This document shows, in pieces, positions 100-24,343 of a stretch of DNA of 36,602 bases (position 1 is the stretch's first letter; every line of letters begins with the position of its first letter). The stretch covers positions 1-36,602 of the forward strand of contig JAXIOF010000101.1 of assembly GCA_034190545.1 (NCBI GenBank), given 5' to 3'. Both the position numbers and the translations under genes were made by a program. Origin of the DNA: Candidatus Afararchaeum irisae (GTDB lineage Archaea > Halobacteriota > Halobacteria > Halobacteriales > Afararchaeaceae). The notes below the pieces were generated by a model that searched no databases, was not told where the DNA came from, and saw only the letters and a list, made by a program, of their open reading frames with translations.

Positions 100-501
100 A
101 TGCTCGGAAGCCTGGAGGCAAAGGTACTGGGGGTTTTAGAGGACGAGGAGGAGGCGAGTGTGAGAGAAGTCGTCGACGGTCTTGAGGAGAGGGGAGAGGA
201 CAAGGCATACACGACGGTGGGGACTATACTCGACAGACTCTACGAGAAGGACATAATCGAGAGAAGGGAGGAGCCTTACAAGGGCGGGTCGAGGTACGTC
301 TACGAGTACGTCGACTTCGAGGAGGACTACCTCAACGAAATTCTACGTGACGTAGTCGACCTCTTCGGCTGTGAAGGTATAGACAGTCTCCACGAGAAGA
401 TCTCCGAGAAGAAGGGTGAGGAGATCTGTAACGGCGAGTCCGACACTGACACCGACGAAGACCCGAAGGAGAAAAGCCCTACGGGGGAGACGTCTGACTG
501 A
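100..501 (+). CDS. BlaI/MecI/CopY-family winged-helix repressor
   Basis: A 133-residue DNA-binding protein. Residues 1-70 fit the BlaI/MecI/CopY fold: a first helix after the start, then AYTTVGTILDRLYEK (about 36-50) as recognition helix, followed by the wing and a YVYEY strand. Residues 71-110 would be the dimerisation helices. The last 25 residues are low-complexity acidic (DTDTDED) and unlike the family core. In bacteria such repressors are inactivated by a membrane metalloprotease sensor, and here the next gene, four bases downstream, encodes a membrane zinc protease, so a two-gene signalling unit is likely. The archaeal ligand or stress is unknown. The family call is firm; the regulated genes are inference, with autoregulation the simplest expectation. 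Confidence 0.8.
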   Translation: MLGSLEAKVLGVLEDEEEASVREVVDGLEERGEDKAYTTVGTILDRLYEKDIIERREEPYKGGSRYVYEYVDFEEDYLNEILRDVVDLFGCEGIDSLHEKISEKKGEEICNGESDTDTDEDPKEKSPTGETSD

Positions 502-505
502 CATA

Positions 506-1438
506 ATGGCAGTGGAAATACAGTCTCTCCCTTTTGCTGGGAGCTACCAACAGCTTCTCCTTTATCTGTCTCTCGCGGGTGCTGGCTGGTTCGGTCTTCT
601 CACCGTGTACTACGCCGCGCTCTCGAAAAGGAGAGCCGTCGTGTCGATGTTCGCGAGCTTCGGGGTCGCGGGAATCATGACAGTCTGGTCGACGAGCGGT
701 ATGCTCGTAGTCATAGGTAGTCTCCGTCTACTCACGGGATTTCCTTCTATGTCGTGGGGGATACTCGTCTCAGTCGTCGAGCTCGCACACGTCATATCTA
801 TAGCACTCCTGTCGTCGCTCTTCGTCTTCAACCAGTGGAGCGTGAGGAAGATGTTCGACAGGTACGAAGACCTCGCCAACACCGAGGTCACACGTGACCT
901 AAACGAGATGGTAGACGTAGACATCTTAATAGACGAGTTCGAGGTCGGGAGTCTGCGTCTTTTAGCCGTCGACGACATAGAGGCGGGAGCCCACACTATG
1001 GTGATAGCGAGTCCGTCACTTGTCTCACCAGCGCTCGGCGAGGACGTCGTCGTAGTCAAGAGTCCTCTCGTTAGAATGCTCGAACCCGAGGAGCTTGAGA
1101 CAGTTCTAGCACACGAACTCGCACACATAGAGGAGCTCGACGGCAGGTTCCGTCCCTACTTCGAGATACTAGCCAACATACTATCCTTCGACCCTCTGGT
1201 TCAGAGGATAAAGAACTCGATACGTAGGAGACAGGAGTACGGAGCCGACGAGAGGGCGGTCGAGGTCACCGGAAACCCGCGGTGTCTCGCGCGTGCTCTC
1301 GTCAAGGTGTCGGAGTACGAGTCGGAGATGGGCGGCTTAGGTCTAGACGTCAAGCAACGTGCCGAACGTCTCGTGAGTATGGGTAAAGAACAAGAACAGA
1401 ACAAAAGTCAGAGACAGAAACAGAAGAAGACGGCGTAA
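506..1438 (+). CDS. Membrane M48/M56 (BlaR1/HtpX-like) zinc metalloprotease
   Basis: A 310-residue integral membrane protease. Residues 1-120 hold about three hydrophobic segments; the cytosolic catalytic part carries the zinc motif HELAH at 203-207, and the QEYGADERA segment about 45 residues later supplies the third ligand (Glu), as in M48/M56 peptidases. The start is taken at the ATG at 506, four bases after the repressor stop. An upstream in-frame ATG at 416 would add 30 Arg/Ser-rich residues lying inside the previous gene and is unlikely. The C-terminus ends in a Gln/Lys-rich low-complexity tail. Pairing with a BlaI-type repressor suggests it is the sensor/protease that relieves repression, as BlaR1 does. 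No penicillin-binding sensor domain is present, so the signal must differ. An HtpX-like quality-control role is the alternative. Confidence 0.75.
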   Translation: MAVEIQSLPFAGSYQQLLLYLSLAGAGWFGLLTVYYAALSKRRAVVSMFASFGVAGIMTVWSTSGMLVVIGSLRLLTGFPSMSWGILVSVVELAHVISIALLSSLFVFNQWSVRKMFDRYEDLANTEVTRDLNEMVDVDILIDEFEVGSLRLLAVDDIEAGAHTMVIASPSLVSPALGEDVVVVKSPLVRMLEPEELETVLAHELAHIEELDGRFRPYFEILANILSFDPLVQRIKNSIRRRQEYGADERAVEVTGNPRCLARALVKVSEYESEMGGLGLDVKQRAERLVSMGKEQEQNKSQRQKQKKTA

Positions 1439-1480: not shown

Positions 1481-4351
1481 TTAGCTCCACTCTTCTTCCC
1501 ACGTCTCGAGAAGCTCTTCCTTCGTCTCAAGACCGTCCTCGGGGAGAGCGTGGTTTATGACGTACGAGCCTTCCTCGTGGACGTTGTCCCACATCTCCTG
1601 GTGAGCGACGGGAGCCTCGTCCCAAGGCGTGAGATGCGTCTCGGGTATCTCGAAGATGCCCTGCTCTATTGCGGAGTTCATCTGCTTGACCTCGTACTGG
1701 TTCTTCATGTGCGTACCGAATATCTCGGTCGACGGCATGTAGATACGTCTCTGACGCATCCAGACCTGAGGCGCGTAGAACGAGTAACGGTCTCCTTCCA
1801 TCTCCTCGGAGAAGACGACCTTACCCATGTACGACGAACACATCATAGTCGAGGCGGAGAGTGTGTTCTGTCCCGCTCTCTCGAATATGACCTCGGGGTT
1901 TCCACGCGGGTTGTCGGGGGTCTTGAGTATCTGACCCACCGCGATACCTATCGGCTTGAACATCTTGTTCATGTAGTCGCCGATAGCCGCCGAGAGCTCG
2001 TCGGGGTTGCTCGGACCCGGAAGCTGGGGCATCGTGTCGAGCCACTCGAACCTGTCGCTCTCTTCGTCTATCTCGTCGAGTGATACGACGCCCTCGACGT
2101 CGTAGCTGTCCTCGACGTACTCCTTCTGTTCGTCGGTCTCTGTGACAACAGCCACACGTGCGTCGTTGTCTATAGCCGCCTCTATGGCTTCCTCTCCGAC
2201 CTCGTCCTCTACGCCCTCGACGTCCTCGGGCGTACCGTACCAGACCATGACGCCCTCTCCGGCGCGGAGGTCGGCACGTCTGTACATCTCCTCGGGAGTC
2301 GACTCGCCACCCTTTCCGATAAACGCCATCTCGTATCCCGTCGAGGCTCCGTAGAAGGCGAGACGTCCGCCGTCGTCGAGGAGCTGGTACGAACGCGAGA
2401 AGGCGTGCGCTCCGGCGTGTGATATGACGTAGTCGGCGAGGTCGCCGTCGTTCTTCTCACGGTACTCGTCGAGGAGAGGCTGACCCGCTTCGACCCAGTC
2501 GTCCCACTCGTCAGGGTCGTTCGGAACCATATGCATCGCGTCTTCGAGAGCCTCCTGCTTCCTGTTGATCGCGGCGTGAGCACCTGCTCCCTTGGCTCTC
2601 TCAGCACGTTCGTCGCTCGAGACGAGCCCCGTGACGTTGAGTCCACGTGACGAAGCCATCATGACTGCGTCTCTTCCCGTACCCGTCGAAGCTCCCTCTA
2701 TGAATATGTTCTTGTCGGGCTCGACGTCGAGGTTGGTGAAGAGGGCACGGTAGATCGTACCCATCGTGAGTATGTAGCTTCCCGCCTCGGTGAGGTCGAG
2801 ATTCTGGGGAGGCTTGAAGAGCTGGGGACCCTGTGCGACCATGAACTGCTGGTGCGACCCGTCGGGGGTCTGGTATCCCTGTATCTCGAATCCGGCGTCC
2901 ATCGGGTCGCGTCCGACGTTGGGCGAGAGGACGTCGAACTGTCCCGCATAGACGTGGACGAGGTCGCCTACCTCTATACGTCCCTCTTCCTTGAGAGCCT
3001 GTCCCGTCTCGGCGACGAGAGCGAGACCTCCCGATCCGGTTATGTGGTAGTCCTTGTCGTAGTTCTTGTAGGTCGAGACGGGTATTCCCGTTATAGCCCA
3101 GACATCGTTGTAGTTGACCTCAGACGTCAGCATGTAGAGGAGGGCGTCGTTGGGACCCGGCTCCTCGACAGGCACGACGACTTCCTTCTCGGCTCCGTCC
3201 TCGACGGGCTCACCGTGGTCGGGCTCTCCCGTCTCCTCGTCTCCCGTGAGTGCCCACGCGAGCTGATAGTCGGGAACGGGAGTCGCTCCGGGGTAGAAGG
3301 GTGAGTCGGGCGGAAGTACGACGCCGTCCTCTATGAGCTCCTCCTTCGTCTCCTCGTCGGGGACGAGCGGGGGGTTGTGGGGCTTGAGGGGAAGCGGGTT
3401 CGAACTCCCGTCGAGGAAGTCCTGTATACCCGTCTTACCGAGGTCATCGTCGACGACGACCTCACCGAAGAGCTCTCCCTCTGCTTCGAGTCCGTCGGAT
3501 ATTCCGTTCTCGAATCCCTCTTCGATAGCCTCGACTGCGGCTTCGACTGCGGGTGTACGTCCGAACTCCTCCGACTGTGTGAGTATACGGCTGTACTCGG
3601 CGTCGTCGGATAGGTCGGGGTAGTCGTCTCCCGACTCCCACCGCTCACGGTCGGACTGTCTCTGGGAGTGTGCGTCTTCGAGAGTATCGTCTTCTCCCGT
3701 GATGTAGCCGTAGGCGAGGTCGTGTGCTCTGTTGACGGCGGCTTCCTTGTCGACTACCTCGTCGACGAATCCCATCTCGAGAGCCTCATCGGCGGAGTAG
3801 TTCCTGCCGTTGAGGATCATGTAGGCAGCCTGCTTGTATCCCTCGTCGCCGTTCTCGTCGTAGGCGAGTCTCGGAAGACGCTGTGTGCCTCCGTATCCGG
3901 GTATTATATACAGGTTGATCTCGGGCTGTCCGAACTCGGCGTCTCCGTCGACGACCGTGTAATGGGTCGACATCTGGAGCTCGTTTCCTCCTCCGAGCGC
4001 GACTCCGTTGACTGCGGAGACTACGGGGATGTCGAGGCTCTCTATCTTGTCGAAGGCTGTGTGTGCTGTCTCGCACATCGCCTCGACGTCGTCGGCTTCG
4101 TCCTGTTCGAGGAACTCCTCTATGTCGGCTCCCGCGACGAAAGCCGTGGTTCCCTCACCCGTGATGACCGCTGCGTCGGCTTCCTCCTCTATCTCGTCGA
4201 CTATCCCGTTAAGCTCGTTGAGAGCCGTCGAGTTGAGGGCGTTGACGGGCGGGTTCGAAACTGTTATCTCTGCGACTGTTCCGTCGTCGTGGGCGAAGTA
4301 CTCGACCACGAAGTTCTCGTACTCCTCGTTAGCTTGTCTTATTGTTGACAT
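1481..4351 (-). CDS. Enoyl-CoA hydratase / crotonyl-CoA reductase-like fusion
   Basis: A 956-residue two-enzyme protein. Residues 15-290 are a crotonase-fold enoyl-CoA hydratase with an AGADI oxyanion loop and both catalytic glutamates in canonical contexts (GGGNEL, E124; FGQPE, E144). After a Pro/acid-rich linker (about 300-395), residues 396-956 resemble zinc-independent medium-chain reductases of the crotonyl-CoA carboxylase/reductase and acryloyl-CoA reductase group: SEVNYNDVW (413-415 NYN), GFE (488-489), nucleotide loop GASTGTG (553-559) and GTH (H881). It would hydrate/dehydrate a 3-hydroxyacyl-CoA and reduce the enoyl-CoA, possibly with CO2 addition. The domain order equals the last two domains of propionyl-CoA synthase, without its N-terminal acyl-CoA synthetase. 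A second Rossmann-like stretch (about 700-850) makes the reductase unusually long. The domain calls are firm; substrate and carboxylation are inference. A GGTGG sequence lies just before the ATG. Confidence 0.82.
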   Translation of the reverse strand: MSTIRQANEEYENFVVEYFAHDDGTVAEITVSNPPVNALNSTALNELNGIVDEIEEEADAAVITGEGTTAFVAGADIEEFLEQDEADDVEAMCETAHTAFDKIESLDIPVVSAVNGVALGGGNELQMSTHYTVVDGDAEFGQPEINLYIIPGYGGTQRLPRLAYDENGDEGYKQAAYMILNGRNYSADEALEMGFVDEVVDKEAAVNRAHDLAYGYITGEDDTLEDAHSQRQSDRERWESGDDYPDLSDDAEYSRILTQSEEFGRTPAVEAAVEAIEEGFENGISDGLEAEGELFGEVVVDDDLGKTGIQDFLDGSSNPLPLKPHNPPLVPDEETKEELIEDGVVLPPDSPFYPGATPVPDYQLAWALTGDEETGEPDHGEPVEDGAEKEVVVPVEEPGPNDALLYMLTSEVNYNDVWAITGIPVSTYKNYDKDYHITGSGGLALVAETGQALKEEGRIEVGDLVHVYAGQFDVLSPNVGRDPMDAGFEIQGYQTPDGSHQQFMVAQGPQLFKPPQNLDLTEAGSYILTMGTIYRALFTNLDVEPDKNIFIEGASTGTGRDAVMMASSRGLNVTGLVSSDERAERAKGAGAHAAINRKQEALEDAMHMVPNDPDEWDDWVEAGQPLLDEYREKNDGDLADYVISHAGAHAFSRSYQLLDDGGRLAFYGASTGYEMAFIGKGGESTPEEMYRRADLRAGEGVMVWYGTPEDVEGVEDEVGEEAIEAAIDNDARVAVVTETDEQKEYVEDSYDVEGVVSLDEIDEESDRFEWLDTMPQLPGPSNPDELSAAIGDYMNKMFKPIGIAVGQILKTPDNPRGNPEVIFERAGQNTLSASTMMCSSYMGKVVFSEEMEGDRYSFYAPQVWMRQRRIYMPSTEIFGTHMKNQYEVKQMNSAIEQGIFEIPETHLTPWDEAPVAHQEMWDNVHEEGSYVINHALPEDGLETKEELLETWEEEWS

Positions 4352-4444
4352 TCAATTACCACCGAATCTGTCATTATTGACGTATTGGTTCCCGAGTATT
4401 AAGGTATCGATTAACACCGAAAGGACAAAACGCGTCTCGGACGT
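4352..4444. promoter_or_regulatory. Divergent promoter region, fusion enzyme / mer
   Basis: These 93 bases separate two divergent genes. Rightward, AGTATTAA (4396-4403) is a TATA-like element implying a transcript start near 4425 and a short leader for mer. Leftward, a CAATAATG-like element (about 4369-4377, reverse strand) precedes the fusion gene, whose mRNA also has a GGTGG sequence near the ATG. No clear operator palindrome was seen. Confidence 0.4.
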
Positions 4445-5395
4445 ATGATACGTATGGACAGTCTCGAAATAGAGCTCGTAGCCGAGGAACCCGTCGACGA
4501 ACTCGTCGAACTCTCCGAGGTCGCAGAGGAGGAGGGCTTTGAGGGAATCTGGATCACCGACCATTACAACAACAGGAACCCCATCGTGGCTCTAACAGCT
4601 ATAGCGCGTGCGACAGACGAGATAGGGATAGGAACGGGGATCACCAACCCCTACTACGCACATCCGGCGTGGACTGCGAGCGCGATGGCGACACTCGACG
4701 AGATGAGCGACGGAAGGGTGCGTTTCGGCTTAGGACCCGGGGATCCTAACACTCTCAAGGCGCTCGACGTCGAGAGGGAGTCTCCCTTATACGAAGTACT
4801 CGACGCCGTCAAGCTCTCGCGGGGTCTCTTCCGTGGCGAGAGTATGGACGTAGACGGTCTCGCAAACGGAGCGAAGCTCAACTACGACTCACGTGATATC
4901 CCCGTCTACATAGGTGCTCAGGGTCCCAACATGCTCAGAATGGCGGCGGATCACGGCGACGGAATACTCATAAACGCGTCACATCCCGACGACTTCAAGT
5001 GGTCTCTCGAACAGATAGGCGAGACAGATGCTGAGATAGTCGCCTACACCTCGTTCTCCGTAGACGAGGATCCCGAGAAGGCGGCGGAGGCGGCACGTCA
5101 GCCCGTCTCTTTCGTCGCGTCGGCGTCGCCCCCGCCTGTACTCGACAGACACGACGTAGACAAGGAGATCGCCGACGAGATAGGCGAGAAGATTGAGGAG
5201 GGCGATTTCTCGGAGGCGTTCTCTCTCGTGACACCTAACATGCTCGACTCGTTCTCAGTCCACGGCACCCCTGACGACTGCAGAAAGCAGGTCGACGAAC
5301 TCTTCGAGGTCGGCGTAGACACCGTAGTCGTGGGATCGCCCCTCGGTCCCGACCCCGAGTCTGCGATACGTCTCGCCGCCGACGCTCTCGACTGA
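4445..5395 (+). CDS. mer: Coenzyme F420-dependent methylenetetrahydromethanopterin reductase (Mer)
   Basis: A 316-residue bacterial-luciferase-like (LLM) TIM-barrel protein. It matches Mer closely along its length: WITDHYNNRN (36-45), the GITNPY segment, GDPNTLKAL, IPVYIGAQGPNMLRMAADHGDG and the late SFVASASPPPVL stretch. Mer reduces methylene- to methyl-tetrahydromethanopterin with F420H2 in methanogens. Haloarchaea keep homologues although they do not make methane, where the role is probably methylene-to-methyl pterin/folate reduction for C1 metabolism. There are two plausible starts, the ATG at 4445 or at 4454; neither has a Shine-Dalgarno sequence. It stands alone, divergent from the CoA fusion gene. 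Confidence 0.85.
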   Translation: MIRMDSLEIELVAEEPVDELVELSEVAEEEGFEGIWITDHYNNRNPIVALTAIARATDEIGIGTGITNPYYAHPAWTASAMATLDEMSDGRVRFGLGPGDPNTLKALDVERESPLYEVLDAVKLSRGLFRGESMDVDGLANGAKLNYDSRDIPVYIGAQGPNMLRMAADHGDGILINASHPDDFKWSLEQIGETDAEIVAYTSFSVDEDPEKAAEAARQPVSFVASASPPPVLDRHDVDKEIADEIGEKIEEGDFSEAFSLVTPNMLDSFSVHGTPDDCRKQVDELFEVGVDTVVVGSPLGPDPESAIRLAADALD

Positions 5396-5396
5396 A

Positions 5397-5441
5397 ACTT
5401 ATAGCCATTACATCTATTACACGGGGTTGCGTACGAGTAGT
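5397..5441 (+). promoter_or_regulatory. Promoter of the toxin-antitoxin pair
   Basis: ACTTATAG (5397-5404) is TATA-like, immediately after the mer stop codon. A transcript start near 5428-5430 would leave about a dozen bases before the ATG at 5442. It would exclude use of the in-frame TTG at 5427, which supports the later start. Confidence 0.4.
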
Positions 5442-5801
5442 ATGCCCATCGACATAGAGAGCTTCGAGGAGGACTCGGAGACTGAGCTACGTTCCGAGGG
5501 GAAGACTAACTCCGAGGAGATACTCTCTTTCTTAGCCTCGAACCCCGATAAGGCATACACTCCGAAGGAGATACACGAAGAAACCGGTGTCGCAAGGGGA
5601 ACTGTCGGCGTCGTTCTGTCGCGTCTGGAGAAGAGGGATCTCGTCCGTCACCGCGGAGAGTACTGGGCAGTAGGTGATGTCGAGGATCTCGACAAGACAC
5701 TGACTTCGATGTCGGTGTCACGTGCTGTGACACAGCGTCTCGGAGCCGAAGACCCCGAGGAATGGGGTCGCGGCGTCGAGTCTGAGACGGAGAACCCATA
5801 G
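5442..5801 (+). CDS. Winged-helix (MarR-like) protein, probable antitoxin
   Basis: A 119-residue protein with an acidic N-terminus and a winged-helix domain at about 22-75: NSEEILSFLASNPDKAYTPKEIHEETG, then RGTVGVVLSRLEKRDLVRHRGEYWAV as recognition helix and wing. The stop codon abuts the start of the next gene (TAGATG), whose product is PemK/MazF-like. This arrangement is typical of a type II toxin-antitoxin operon in which the antitoxin also represses its own promoter. I chose the ATG at 5442; a TTG at 5427 would add five residues but lies at the predicted transcript start. The DNA-binding fold is clear, the antitoxin role is inferred from position. Confidence 0.7.
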   Translation: MPIDIESFEEDSETELRSEGKTNSEEILSFLASNPDKAYTPKEIHEETGVARGTVGVVLSRLEKRDLVRHRGEYWAVGDVEDLDKTLTSMSVSRAVTQRLGAEDPEEWGRGVESETENP

Positions 5802-6137
5802 ATGCCTAACGACTACGGATATGGTGAAGTCTGGTGGGGTCCTGCACTACATAAGTCGTCTCCTGCCTACCGACCCTGGCTGATAATAAGCGATGAAAGA
5901 CATCCTTTCTCGAAGGACGAATGTATCGTGCTCGCTATGACTTCTCAGACACATTCCGAAGGAATCGAAGTACAGGACACTGACTGGGTTCGAGGAGGCT
6001 CCGACAAGGACTCGTATGTCTCACCCTGGTACGTGACTACGGTCAAGAAACGTGACCTCGACAGCCAACAGGGCGAACTTAGGGCGGCTACTGTCGAGAA
6101 AGCAGTCGGTAAGCTGAGTAGATATATAGAGGTCTGA
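5802..6137 (+). CDS. PemK/MazF-like toxin (endoribonuclease family)
   Basis: A 111-residue protein with the PemK/MazF layout: an early strand around GEVWWG, then YRPWLIISDERHPF, the central CIVLAMTSQTH strand, and a C-terminal helix (TVEKAVGKLSRYI). MazF-family members cleave mRNA and are neutralised by the partner protein. It is directly coupled to the upstream winged-helix gene. Codon choice (more GAA, AGA, ATA and AAG-to-AAA variation) and lower local GC look less like the neighbouring housekeeping genes, which suggests recent acquisition. Catalytic residues cannot be confirmed without alignment, so some members of this haloarchaeal branch may not be toxic. Confidence 0.72.
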   Translation: MPNDYGYGEVWWGPALHKSSPAYRPWLIISDERHPFSKDECIVLAMTSQTHSEGIEVQDTDWVRGGSDKDSYVSPWYVTTVKKRDLDSQQGELRAATVEKAVGKLSRYIEV

Positions 6138-22271: not shown

Positions 22272-23951
22272 ATGTTCGACGAGGACGATCTAGAGGAAAT
22301 AAGAGAGTCTAGACAGGAGTGGGAGGAAGAGACGCTGGGACCCACGCTCGACAGGTTCGGGGAGCGTGAGGACGAGTTCACGACCGACTCGGGCATAGAG
22401 GTCGACCAGATATACACGCCCGACGACATCTCCGACCTCGACTACGACGAGGATCTCGGCTTTCCGGGCGAGGAGCCCTACACCCGCGGCATATACTCGA
22501 CGATGCACCGCGGACGTCTCTGGACTATGCGTCAGTACTCGGGATTCGCTACCGCCGAGGAGACCAACGAGAGGTTCCATTACCTCTTAGATCAGGGTCA
22601 GACGGGTCTCTCAGTCGCCTTCGACCTCCCGAGTCAGATGGGACGTGACTCCGACCATCCACTCTCACAGGGTGAGGTCGGCAAGGCGGGTGTCGCGATA
22701 GACTCTCTCGCCGACTACGAGACTCTCTTTGACGGGATTCCCTTAGACGAGGTCTCGACGAGCATGACTATAAACGCCCCTGCGTCGATAATGCTCGCTA
22801 TGTACATAGCGGTCGGGGACAAACAGGGTATCGACCGCGAGGAGCTCAGAGGCACTATACAGAACGACATACTCAAGGAGTACATCGCACGTAACCTCTA
22901 TGTCTATCCTCCCGAACCCTCTATGAGGATCGTCACCGACATATTCGAGTTCTGTTCTGACGAGGTTCCCAACTTCAACACTATATCTATCTCGGGATAC
23001 CACATCCGTGAGGCGGGTGCGACCGCCGTACAGGAGCTCGCCTTCACTCTAGCAGACGGCAAGAAGTACGTCGAGGAAGCCGTCGAGGCGGGACTTGACG
23101 TCGACGAGTTTGCCCCGCGTCTCTCTTTCTTCTTCAACGCTCACAACGAGATATTTGAGGAAGTCGCCAAGTTCCGCGCGGCGAGACGTATATGGGCTGA
23201 TGTCATGGAGGAGGAGTTCGGAGCCGAGAACCCGAAGAGCAAGATGCTGCGTTTCCACACACAGACTGCGGGTTCGACACTCACCGCACAGCAGATAGAG
23301 AACAACATCGTCCGTGTCGGATACCAGGCTCTCGCCGCCGTCTTAGGAGGCACACAGTCTCTACACACGAACGGAAAGGACGAGGCTCTCTCCCTCCCGA
23401 CAGAGGAGTCGGTACGTACCGCACTGAGGACACAGCAGATACTCGGTCATGAGAGCGGTGTAGCCGACACGATAGATCCCCTCGCGGGATCCTACTACGT
23501 AGAGAGTCTCACAGACGAGATAGAGGAACGCGTCTACGACTACTTCGACGAGATAGACGAACGCGGAGGCGTCCTCTCGTGCATAGAGGAGGGCTGGATA
23601 CAGGACGAGATACAGGACGCCGCCTACGAGCGTCAGCAGGAGATAGAGGAGAACGAACGTATAATCGTCGGAGTCAACAAGTTCACAGTCGACAAGGAGC
23701 CCGAGGAGGACATACACGAGGTCGACGAGAAACAGCAGGAGAGACAGATACAGAAGGTCGAGGAGCTCCGTGACGACAGGGACGATGACGCAGTAGACGA
23801 GGCACTCGAAGAACTCAAGGATGCCGCCGAAGGCGATGACAACCTAATGCCTTACATAATAGACGCGGTCAAGGCGTACGCCACGGTTGGGGAGATAGCT
23901 GACGCACTCAGGGACGTCTTCGGAGAGTACAGAGTGGGGGCTGATTACTGA
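22272..23951 (+). CDS. mcmA: Methylmalonyl-CoA mutase, large (catalytic) subunit
   Basis: A 559-residue mutase TIM-barrel chain, which interconverts methylmalonyl-CoA and succinyl-CoA. [16 protein letters not shown] carries Y89, the tyrosine typical of methylmalonyl-CoA mutase rather than the Phe of isobutyryl-CoA mutase. [21 protein letters not shown] and [14 protein letters not shown] are all canonical. The cobalamin-binding domain (DxHxxG) is absent, so a separate small subunit must be encoded elsewhere, as usual in haloarchaea. It overlaps the epimerase gene by one base (TGATG). A second coding-density argument: no internal stops and strong conservation end to end. Confidence 0.94.
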
Positions 23952-24343
23952 TGTCGGTCGAGTTCGACCACGTAGGGATCGCGGTAGAGGACGCCGACGA
24001 GGCACTCAAGACCTACCGCGACGTAATCGGCATGGAGTTCGACTACGAGGAGGAGTTCGGAGGCATGCGTGTCATCTTCCTCGAAGCCGGCGAGGGCGAG
24101 TTCGAACTACTCGAACCACTCGATGACGACGGTGCGGTTGCGCGACACTTAGAGAAGAGGGGCGAGGGAATACAGCACGTCGCAGTAAAGGTCGACTCGA
24201 TAGAAGACGAGTTAGAACGTCTCGAAGACCTCGGAATACGTCTCATAGACGACGAGCCGCGTCCGGGTGCTGGCGGTAAACAGGTTGCTTTCCTCCATCC
24301 CGGGGACACCCACGGAGTCCTCTTAGAGCTCTGCGAGTACTAG
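23951..24343 (+). CDS. mce: Methylmalonyl-CoA epimerase
   Basis: A 130-residue vicinal-oxygen-chelate protein that interconverts (S)- and (R)-methylmalonyl-CoA. FDHVGIAVEDADEA (metal ligand H7), IQHVAVKVDS (second His) and the terminal GVLLELCEY (Glu) fit the family, as does HPGDTHG. It is translationally coupled to the mutase gene by a TGATG overlap, so substrate made by a propionyl-CoA carboxylase elsewhere can be passed on. Confidence 0.93.
   Translation: MSVEFDHVGIAVEDADEALKTYRDVIGMEFDYEEEFGGMRVIFLEAGEGEFELLEPLDDDGAVARHLEKRGEGIQHVAVKVDSIEDELERLEDLGIRLIDDEPRPGAGGKQVAFLHPGDTHGVLLELCEY

Follow-up and report, generated by a model that had tools for sequence, protein, structure and literature searches.

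A propionyl-CoA synthase-type dehydratase-reductase lacking the ligase domain in Candidatus Afararchaeum irisae

Propionyl-CoA synthase (PCS), an enzyme of the 3-hydroxypropionate bicycle, is the textbook case of a nanometre-scale reaction compartment, in which the toxic intermediate acryloyl-CoA is kept enclosed. Here we analyse a stretch of 36,602 bp (the window) from the haloarchaeon Candidatus Afararchaeum irisae, in which a single gene encodes a hydratase and a reductase in one chain with no synthetase in front of them, and ask what such a protein does and how it is related to the complete PCS. The assembly comprises 1.9 Mb, is 98.9% complete, and is the sole genome of its family in the genome set. 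The features of the window are collected in Table 1.

Table 1. Positions of the features discussed, in the coordinates of the window
Feature	Position	Strand	Basis or remark
Peptidase gene	416..1438		convergent neighbour
Dehydratase-reductase gene (ECH + RED), 956 aa, 105 kDa, pI 4.05	1481..4351	-	ORF; 6eqo match; AlphaFold
PCS-type reductase domain (RED), residues 331-956	1484..3361	-	ADH_zinc_N; Ccr matches; identities
ECH (crotonase) domain with PCS-type C-terminal extension, residues 1-330	3362..4351	-	Pfam ECH_1; 49% identity
Intergenic region, 93-94 bp to divergent gene	4352..4444	-	no ligase-domain remnant (sequence reading)
Luciferase-like/Mer-type gene	4445..5395		divergent neighbour
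MarR-like regulator and PemK/MazF-like protein	5427..6137		the second directly after the first
Methylmalonyl-CoA mutase large subunit	22272..23951	+	PF01642 1.3e-236; TIGR00641 above cut-off
Methylmalonyl-CoA epimerase	23951..24343	+	TIGR03081 above cut-off

Domains, fold and predicted function

The uninterrupted frame of 956 codons that had been predicted is present and starts with ATG; its coordinates held, and its strand, which the original prediction did not give, is minus, the plus-strand translation containing several stops. The encoded protein (ER protein) is acidic (21% Asp + Glu, pI 4.05), as expected for a haloarchaeal protein. A Pfam search recovered both domains, ECH_1 at residues 24-212 (1.8e-39) and ADH_zinc_N at residues 559-672 (1.2e-16). 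Both catalytic glutamates ascribed to the hydratase were located, E124 (motif GGGNE) and E144 (motif GQPE), both kept in every PCS row of the alignment that covers those positions. The reductase half is of the proposed Ccr type (TIGR01751, 1.6e-58) and consists of the MDR/Ccr fold, a PCS-specific linker and an insert around residues 676-817, on both flanks of which Ccr chains align. The Ccr enzymes share this fold at about 30% identity but, unlike the ER protein, have neither a fused hydratase nor the PCS-type insert.

Residues 8-952 of the ER protein match residues 887-1840 of the trifunctional PCS of Erythrobacter sp. NAP1 (PDB 6eqo) within one chain (phmmer 4.3e-290). A template-free AlphaFold model (pLDDT 89.5, pTM 0.83) superposes on the same structure including the placement of the domains; 6eqo is also its best Foldseek match (TM 0.94, 48% identity, 2.6 A, 965 columns), with Ccr far behind. 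The full-length match and the superposition with the last two PCS domains indicate that the fusion is not a product of chance. Domain order, linker, insert, catalytic residues and predicted placement are the same in both proteins, but the Erythrobacter enzyme carries an N-terminal ACS domain of about 880 residues that the ER protein lacks. The notion of a PCS-like hydratase and enoyl-CoA reductase without the synthetase was thus sound, but understated the kinship, since homology to PCS extends through the entire protein, with the domains in the same arrangement. Three-domain PCS of the same archaeal class, with carriers including Natrinema zhouii, Natribaculum, Natronococcus and Natronomonas, have chains of about 1,790-1,870 aa that keep the ligase domain, and several are encoded on megaplasmids. 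They are about 50-54% identical to the ER protein across all 956 aa (ECH domain with extension, 49% over 315 aa; reductase domain, 51-55%).

With a probability of roughly 0.75, we read the ER protein as a ligase-less member of the PCS family, a bifunctional 3-hydroxypropionyl-CoA dehydratase and NADPH-dependent acryloyl-CoA reductase. Another enzyme would supply the CoA ester of 3-hydroxypropionate, or acryloyl-CoA itself; the ECH domain (E124/E144) would convert 3-hydroxypropionyl-CoA to acryloyl-CoA and water, and the acryloyl-CoA would be handed to the adjoining reductase, which is placed relative to the ECH domain as in PCS and would reduce it with NADPH to propionyl-CoA. We infer the substrate, the use of NADPH, the channelling, the source of the CoA ester and each of these enzymatic steps from homology. 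An ATP-dependent step is not expected, because the ligase domain is missing. Downstream, propionyl-CoA carboxylase, epimerase and mutase would lead from propionyl-CoA to succinyl-CoA; the mutase and epimerase genes lie in the window, the mutase outside any operon with the ER gene, and a propionyl/acetyl-CoA carboxylase is encoded elsewhere in the genome. For Haloferax mediterranei, a route to propionyl-CoA by way of 3-hydroxypropionate has been proposed (reviewed in PMC7137286 and PMC6631277), and this proposal provides a precedent for such chemistry in the class.

A different substrate range, in which the protein would act as a 3-hydroxybutyryl-CoA dehydratase and crotonyl-CoA (trans-2-enoyl-CoA) reductase yielding butyryl-CoA or a longer product, appears unlikely. 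The reductase fold is that of Ccr, and crotonases often accept a broad range of substrates; but the full-length kinship is with PCS and not with Ccr, the score against the curated Ccr model (198.3 bits) falls well below the equivalog cut-off of 378.55, the PCS-invariant residues are retained, and the neighbourhoods of the nearest stand-alone reductases (described below) fit a C3 acyl-CoA better.

The missing ligase and the kinship of the reductase

The original prediction of an absent synthetase was confirmed, as the chain begins at the boundary between ACS and ECH and the gene upstream is divergent, with no readable remnant of a ligase. When the ligase domain of a haloarchaeal PCS was searched against the entire genome, no PCS-type ligase came up; the matches were ordinary ligases with identities of about 36%, and the top one is a genuine acetate-CoA ligase (AcsA). 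The further suggestion that the acyl-CoA ligase is a separate protein found no support in the genome, which encodes AcsA, an acetate-ligase-like protein of 547 aa, an ADP-forming ligase and MenE, none of which adjoins the ER gene, and no dedicated 3-hydroxypropionate or acrylate ligase was identified among its genes. A ligase on another contig (C40) was considered as a partner and rejected, as it belongs to a menaquinone operon and resembles MenE. Likewise, no upstream 3-hydroxypropionate route was identified in the genome, in a search that left out malonyl-CoA reductase. The original view of a bifunctional module leading from 3-hydroxyacyl-CoA to acyl-CoA therefore stands by homology for its PCS-type hydratase and reductase, but not for its separate ligase protein. 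The isolated ligase domain of a bacterial PCS functions alone (PMC11599936), and the PCS steps are therefore separable.

The ER gene has no operon partner. Its wider neighbourhood consists of ordinary chromosomal genes, among them those for primase, GINS, cytochrome b and the methylmalonyl-CoA mutase and epimerase, and an AT-rich stretch in the intergenic region is likely its promoter. The divergent neighbour encodes a protein resembling F420-dependent methylenetetrahydromethanopterin reductase, which in this haloarchaeon passes the cut-off of PRK02271 but not that of TIGR03555.

The reductase domain is most similar to stand-alone haloarchaeal reductases (66-72% identity), which occur in Haladaptatus, Haloferax marinum, Natribaculum luteum and others and lack an ECH domain. 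The reductase tree included six of them, and the window protein branches as sister to the six together; the joint group (ER/R) is supported at 100/100, and the six without the window protein at 98/92. Twenty positions separate ER/R from the bacterial and haloarchaeal PCS sampled, a position being counted as group-specific if at least 90% conserved in PCS with the PCS residue never found in ER/R. The same groups also differ by two indels: a gap of three residues close to residue 750 and an insertion of two residues close to residue 385. Tree grouping, positions and indels together mark an old, separate branch of PCS-type reductases, not a fresh truncation.

These results bear directly on whether the gene is an ordinary haloarchaeal PCS that lost its ligase domain in a recent deletion or through an assembly error. 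Full PCS is common in haloarchaea, and the ER protein starts exactly at the ACS/ECH boundary, both as a truncation would have it. Set against this are the gene's own start with a divergent neighbour and no ligase remnant, the lack of a PCS-type ligase elsewhere in a nearly complete genome, and a reductase domain that is only about 53% identical to PCS and shares its group-specific residues and indels with the stand-alone enzymes. The GC3 of the ER gene (0.747) also lies within one standard deviation of that of the other genes (0.703 +/- 0.049), and the gene is therefore not a recent arrival. Taken together, a recent truncation or an assembly error is very improbable, and both were rejected.

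How the two-domain form arose is a separate matter. In a Ccr-rooted tree, a topology that unites all PCS and one that joins haloarchaeal PCS to ER/R were indistinguishable (AU p 0.50). The ECH tree rooted on solo ECH put the window outside all PCS under LG+G4 (91/81) but with haloarchaeal PCS under a mixture model on shared columns (81/57); since the ECH of the window is a long branch and the answer shifts with model and columns, no direction was taken from the ECH trees. Both a loss of the ligase and an ER/R branch that preceded ligase fusion are compatible with the trees. It is conceivable, if on balance doubtful, that ER/R lies outside all PCS and that the window protein is a surviving pre-ligase stage; the trifunctional PCS would then have been built stepwise, possibly in haloarchaea, from reductase and dehydratase with the ligase added last, and the sealed chamber would have come later.

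Neither domain looks degenerate, as few near-invariant PCS positions are changed (14 of 82 in ECH, 17 of 170 in RED). Residues N413, N415, D416, S578 and R582 are invariant across 35 relatives, and D416 aligns with D1302 of the Erythrobacter PCS in 6eqo. A reductive carboxylase fixing CO2 on the enoyl-CoA as Ccr does, and giving methylmalonyl-CoA directly, can practically be dismissed, because in spite of the Ccr-type fold and a weak carboxylation side activity that a 2019 study reportedly found in bacterial PCS, the PCS residue at D416 is kept in all relatives and the score stays under the Ccr cut-off. Residue M865, which corresponds to T1753 in Erythrobacter, is not diagnostic, since methionine is common in PCS at this position (23 of 35 rows).

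Stand-alone reductases and their gene clusters

The stand-alone PCS-type reductases are annotated as 'zinc-binding dehydrogenase', and for most of them the same cluster contains an acyl-CoA ligase and, as a separate gene, a member of the crotonase family. An IclR regulator, a BCCT transporter and an ADP-forming acyl-CoA ligase accompany the reductase in Haladaptatus, Haloferax marinum and one Natrialbaceae genome; the first two also have a crotonase-family gene and a Rieske oxygenase, and two more genomes share the ligase and the crotonase. With an additional EamA protein, the cluster is complete on the Haladaptatus sp. YSMS36 plasmid (L137, 4362-14420) and in Haloferax marinum (L035, 6744-16199), and partial at three other loci (L040, L036, L039). 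A further genus has an AMP-forming acyl-CoA ligase directly beside the reductase, and malate synthase slightly further away.

The best solved relatives of the cluster ligase are the archaeal 4-hydroxybutyrate and 3-hydroxypropionate CoA ligases; a weaker match is DddX, a DMSP lyase with acryloyl-CoA as its product. In Psychrobacter, a BCCT transporter is likewise part of the DddX cluster, and reduction of acryloyl-CoA to propionyl-CoA with NADPH is a proposed next step there (PMC8163506). The reductase-BCCT cluster, of which no description was found, is a candidate DMSP-, betaine- or acrylate-type catabolic pathway, and the neighbourhoods of the stand-alone reductases support a C3 acyl-CoA, with acryloyl-CoA reduction as the probable common chemistry. 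The ER genome, examined for DMSP or betaine uptake, has no BCCT transporter, and the source of its substrate therefore probably differs from that in the cluster genomes.

Together with PCS, the ligase-less ER protein and the stand-alone reductases of the same branch form a series of three, two and one domains, in which one can ask which domain seals the PCS chamber and how multi-enzymes assemble or come apart. The ER protein offers a natural test of whether containment of the toxic intermediate depends on the ligase part. The series also places PCS chemistry in salt-loving archaea, with the reductase in clusters that likely serve osmolyte- or acrylate-type catabolism rather than CO2 fixation.

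Distribution

The reductase family occurs in 20 of 394 haloarchaeal genomes, and none of its members was found in other classes of the phylum in a sample of 394 genomes. Three-domain PCS is present in 12 of the 394 genomes (one match, G311, is partial) and the stand-alone reductase at seven loci (one copy, G292, is split in two frames), one genome having both; the two-domain form was encountered only in the window. The E-R fusion, which had been thought undescribed in haloarchaea, is thus not new there as such, because complete PCS contains it, but the ligase-less two-domain form is.

A species-level genome collection yielded 343 relatives, and the best 80 of these are three-domain PCS except for one stand-alone reductase (Haloferax marinum), some of them truncated at contig ends and two interrupted by apparent frameshifts. 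A two-domain form may still exist in bacteria among the other 263 relatives. An apparent second case in Oscillochloris sp. RM1_1_4 (L068, 5371-10937), with separate A and ER frames, was rejected as a one-base deletion or frameshift: the frames are collinear with intact PCS, reading resumes without loss and the MAG has low coverage, which points to a sequencing error. Viral contigs yielded no relative, and phage records gave short crotonase matches only.

Complete PCS was also found in Aneurinibacillus (Bacillota; L053, L076), a genus outside the phototrophs with which the 3-hydroxypropionate bicycle is usually linked. On the megaplasmid of Natrinema zhouii (L139, 9463-24319), the three-domain PCS lies near an IclR regulator, a thiolase-like pair, an AMP-ligase and a second enzyme of the methylmalonyl-CoA mutase type with MeaB.
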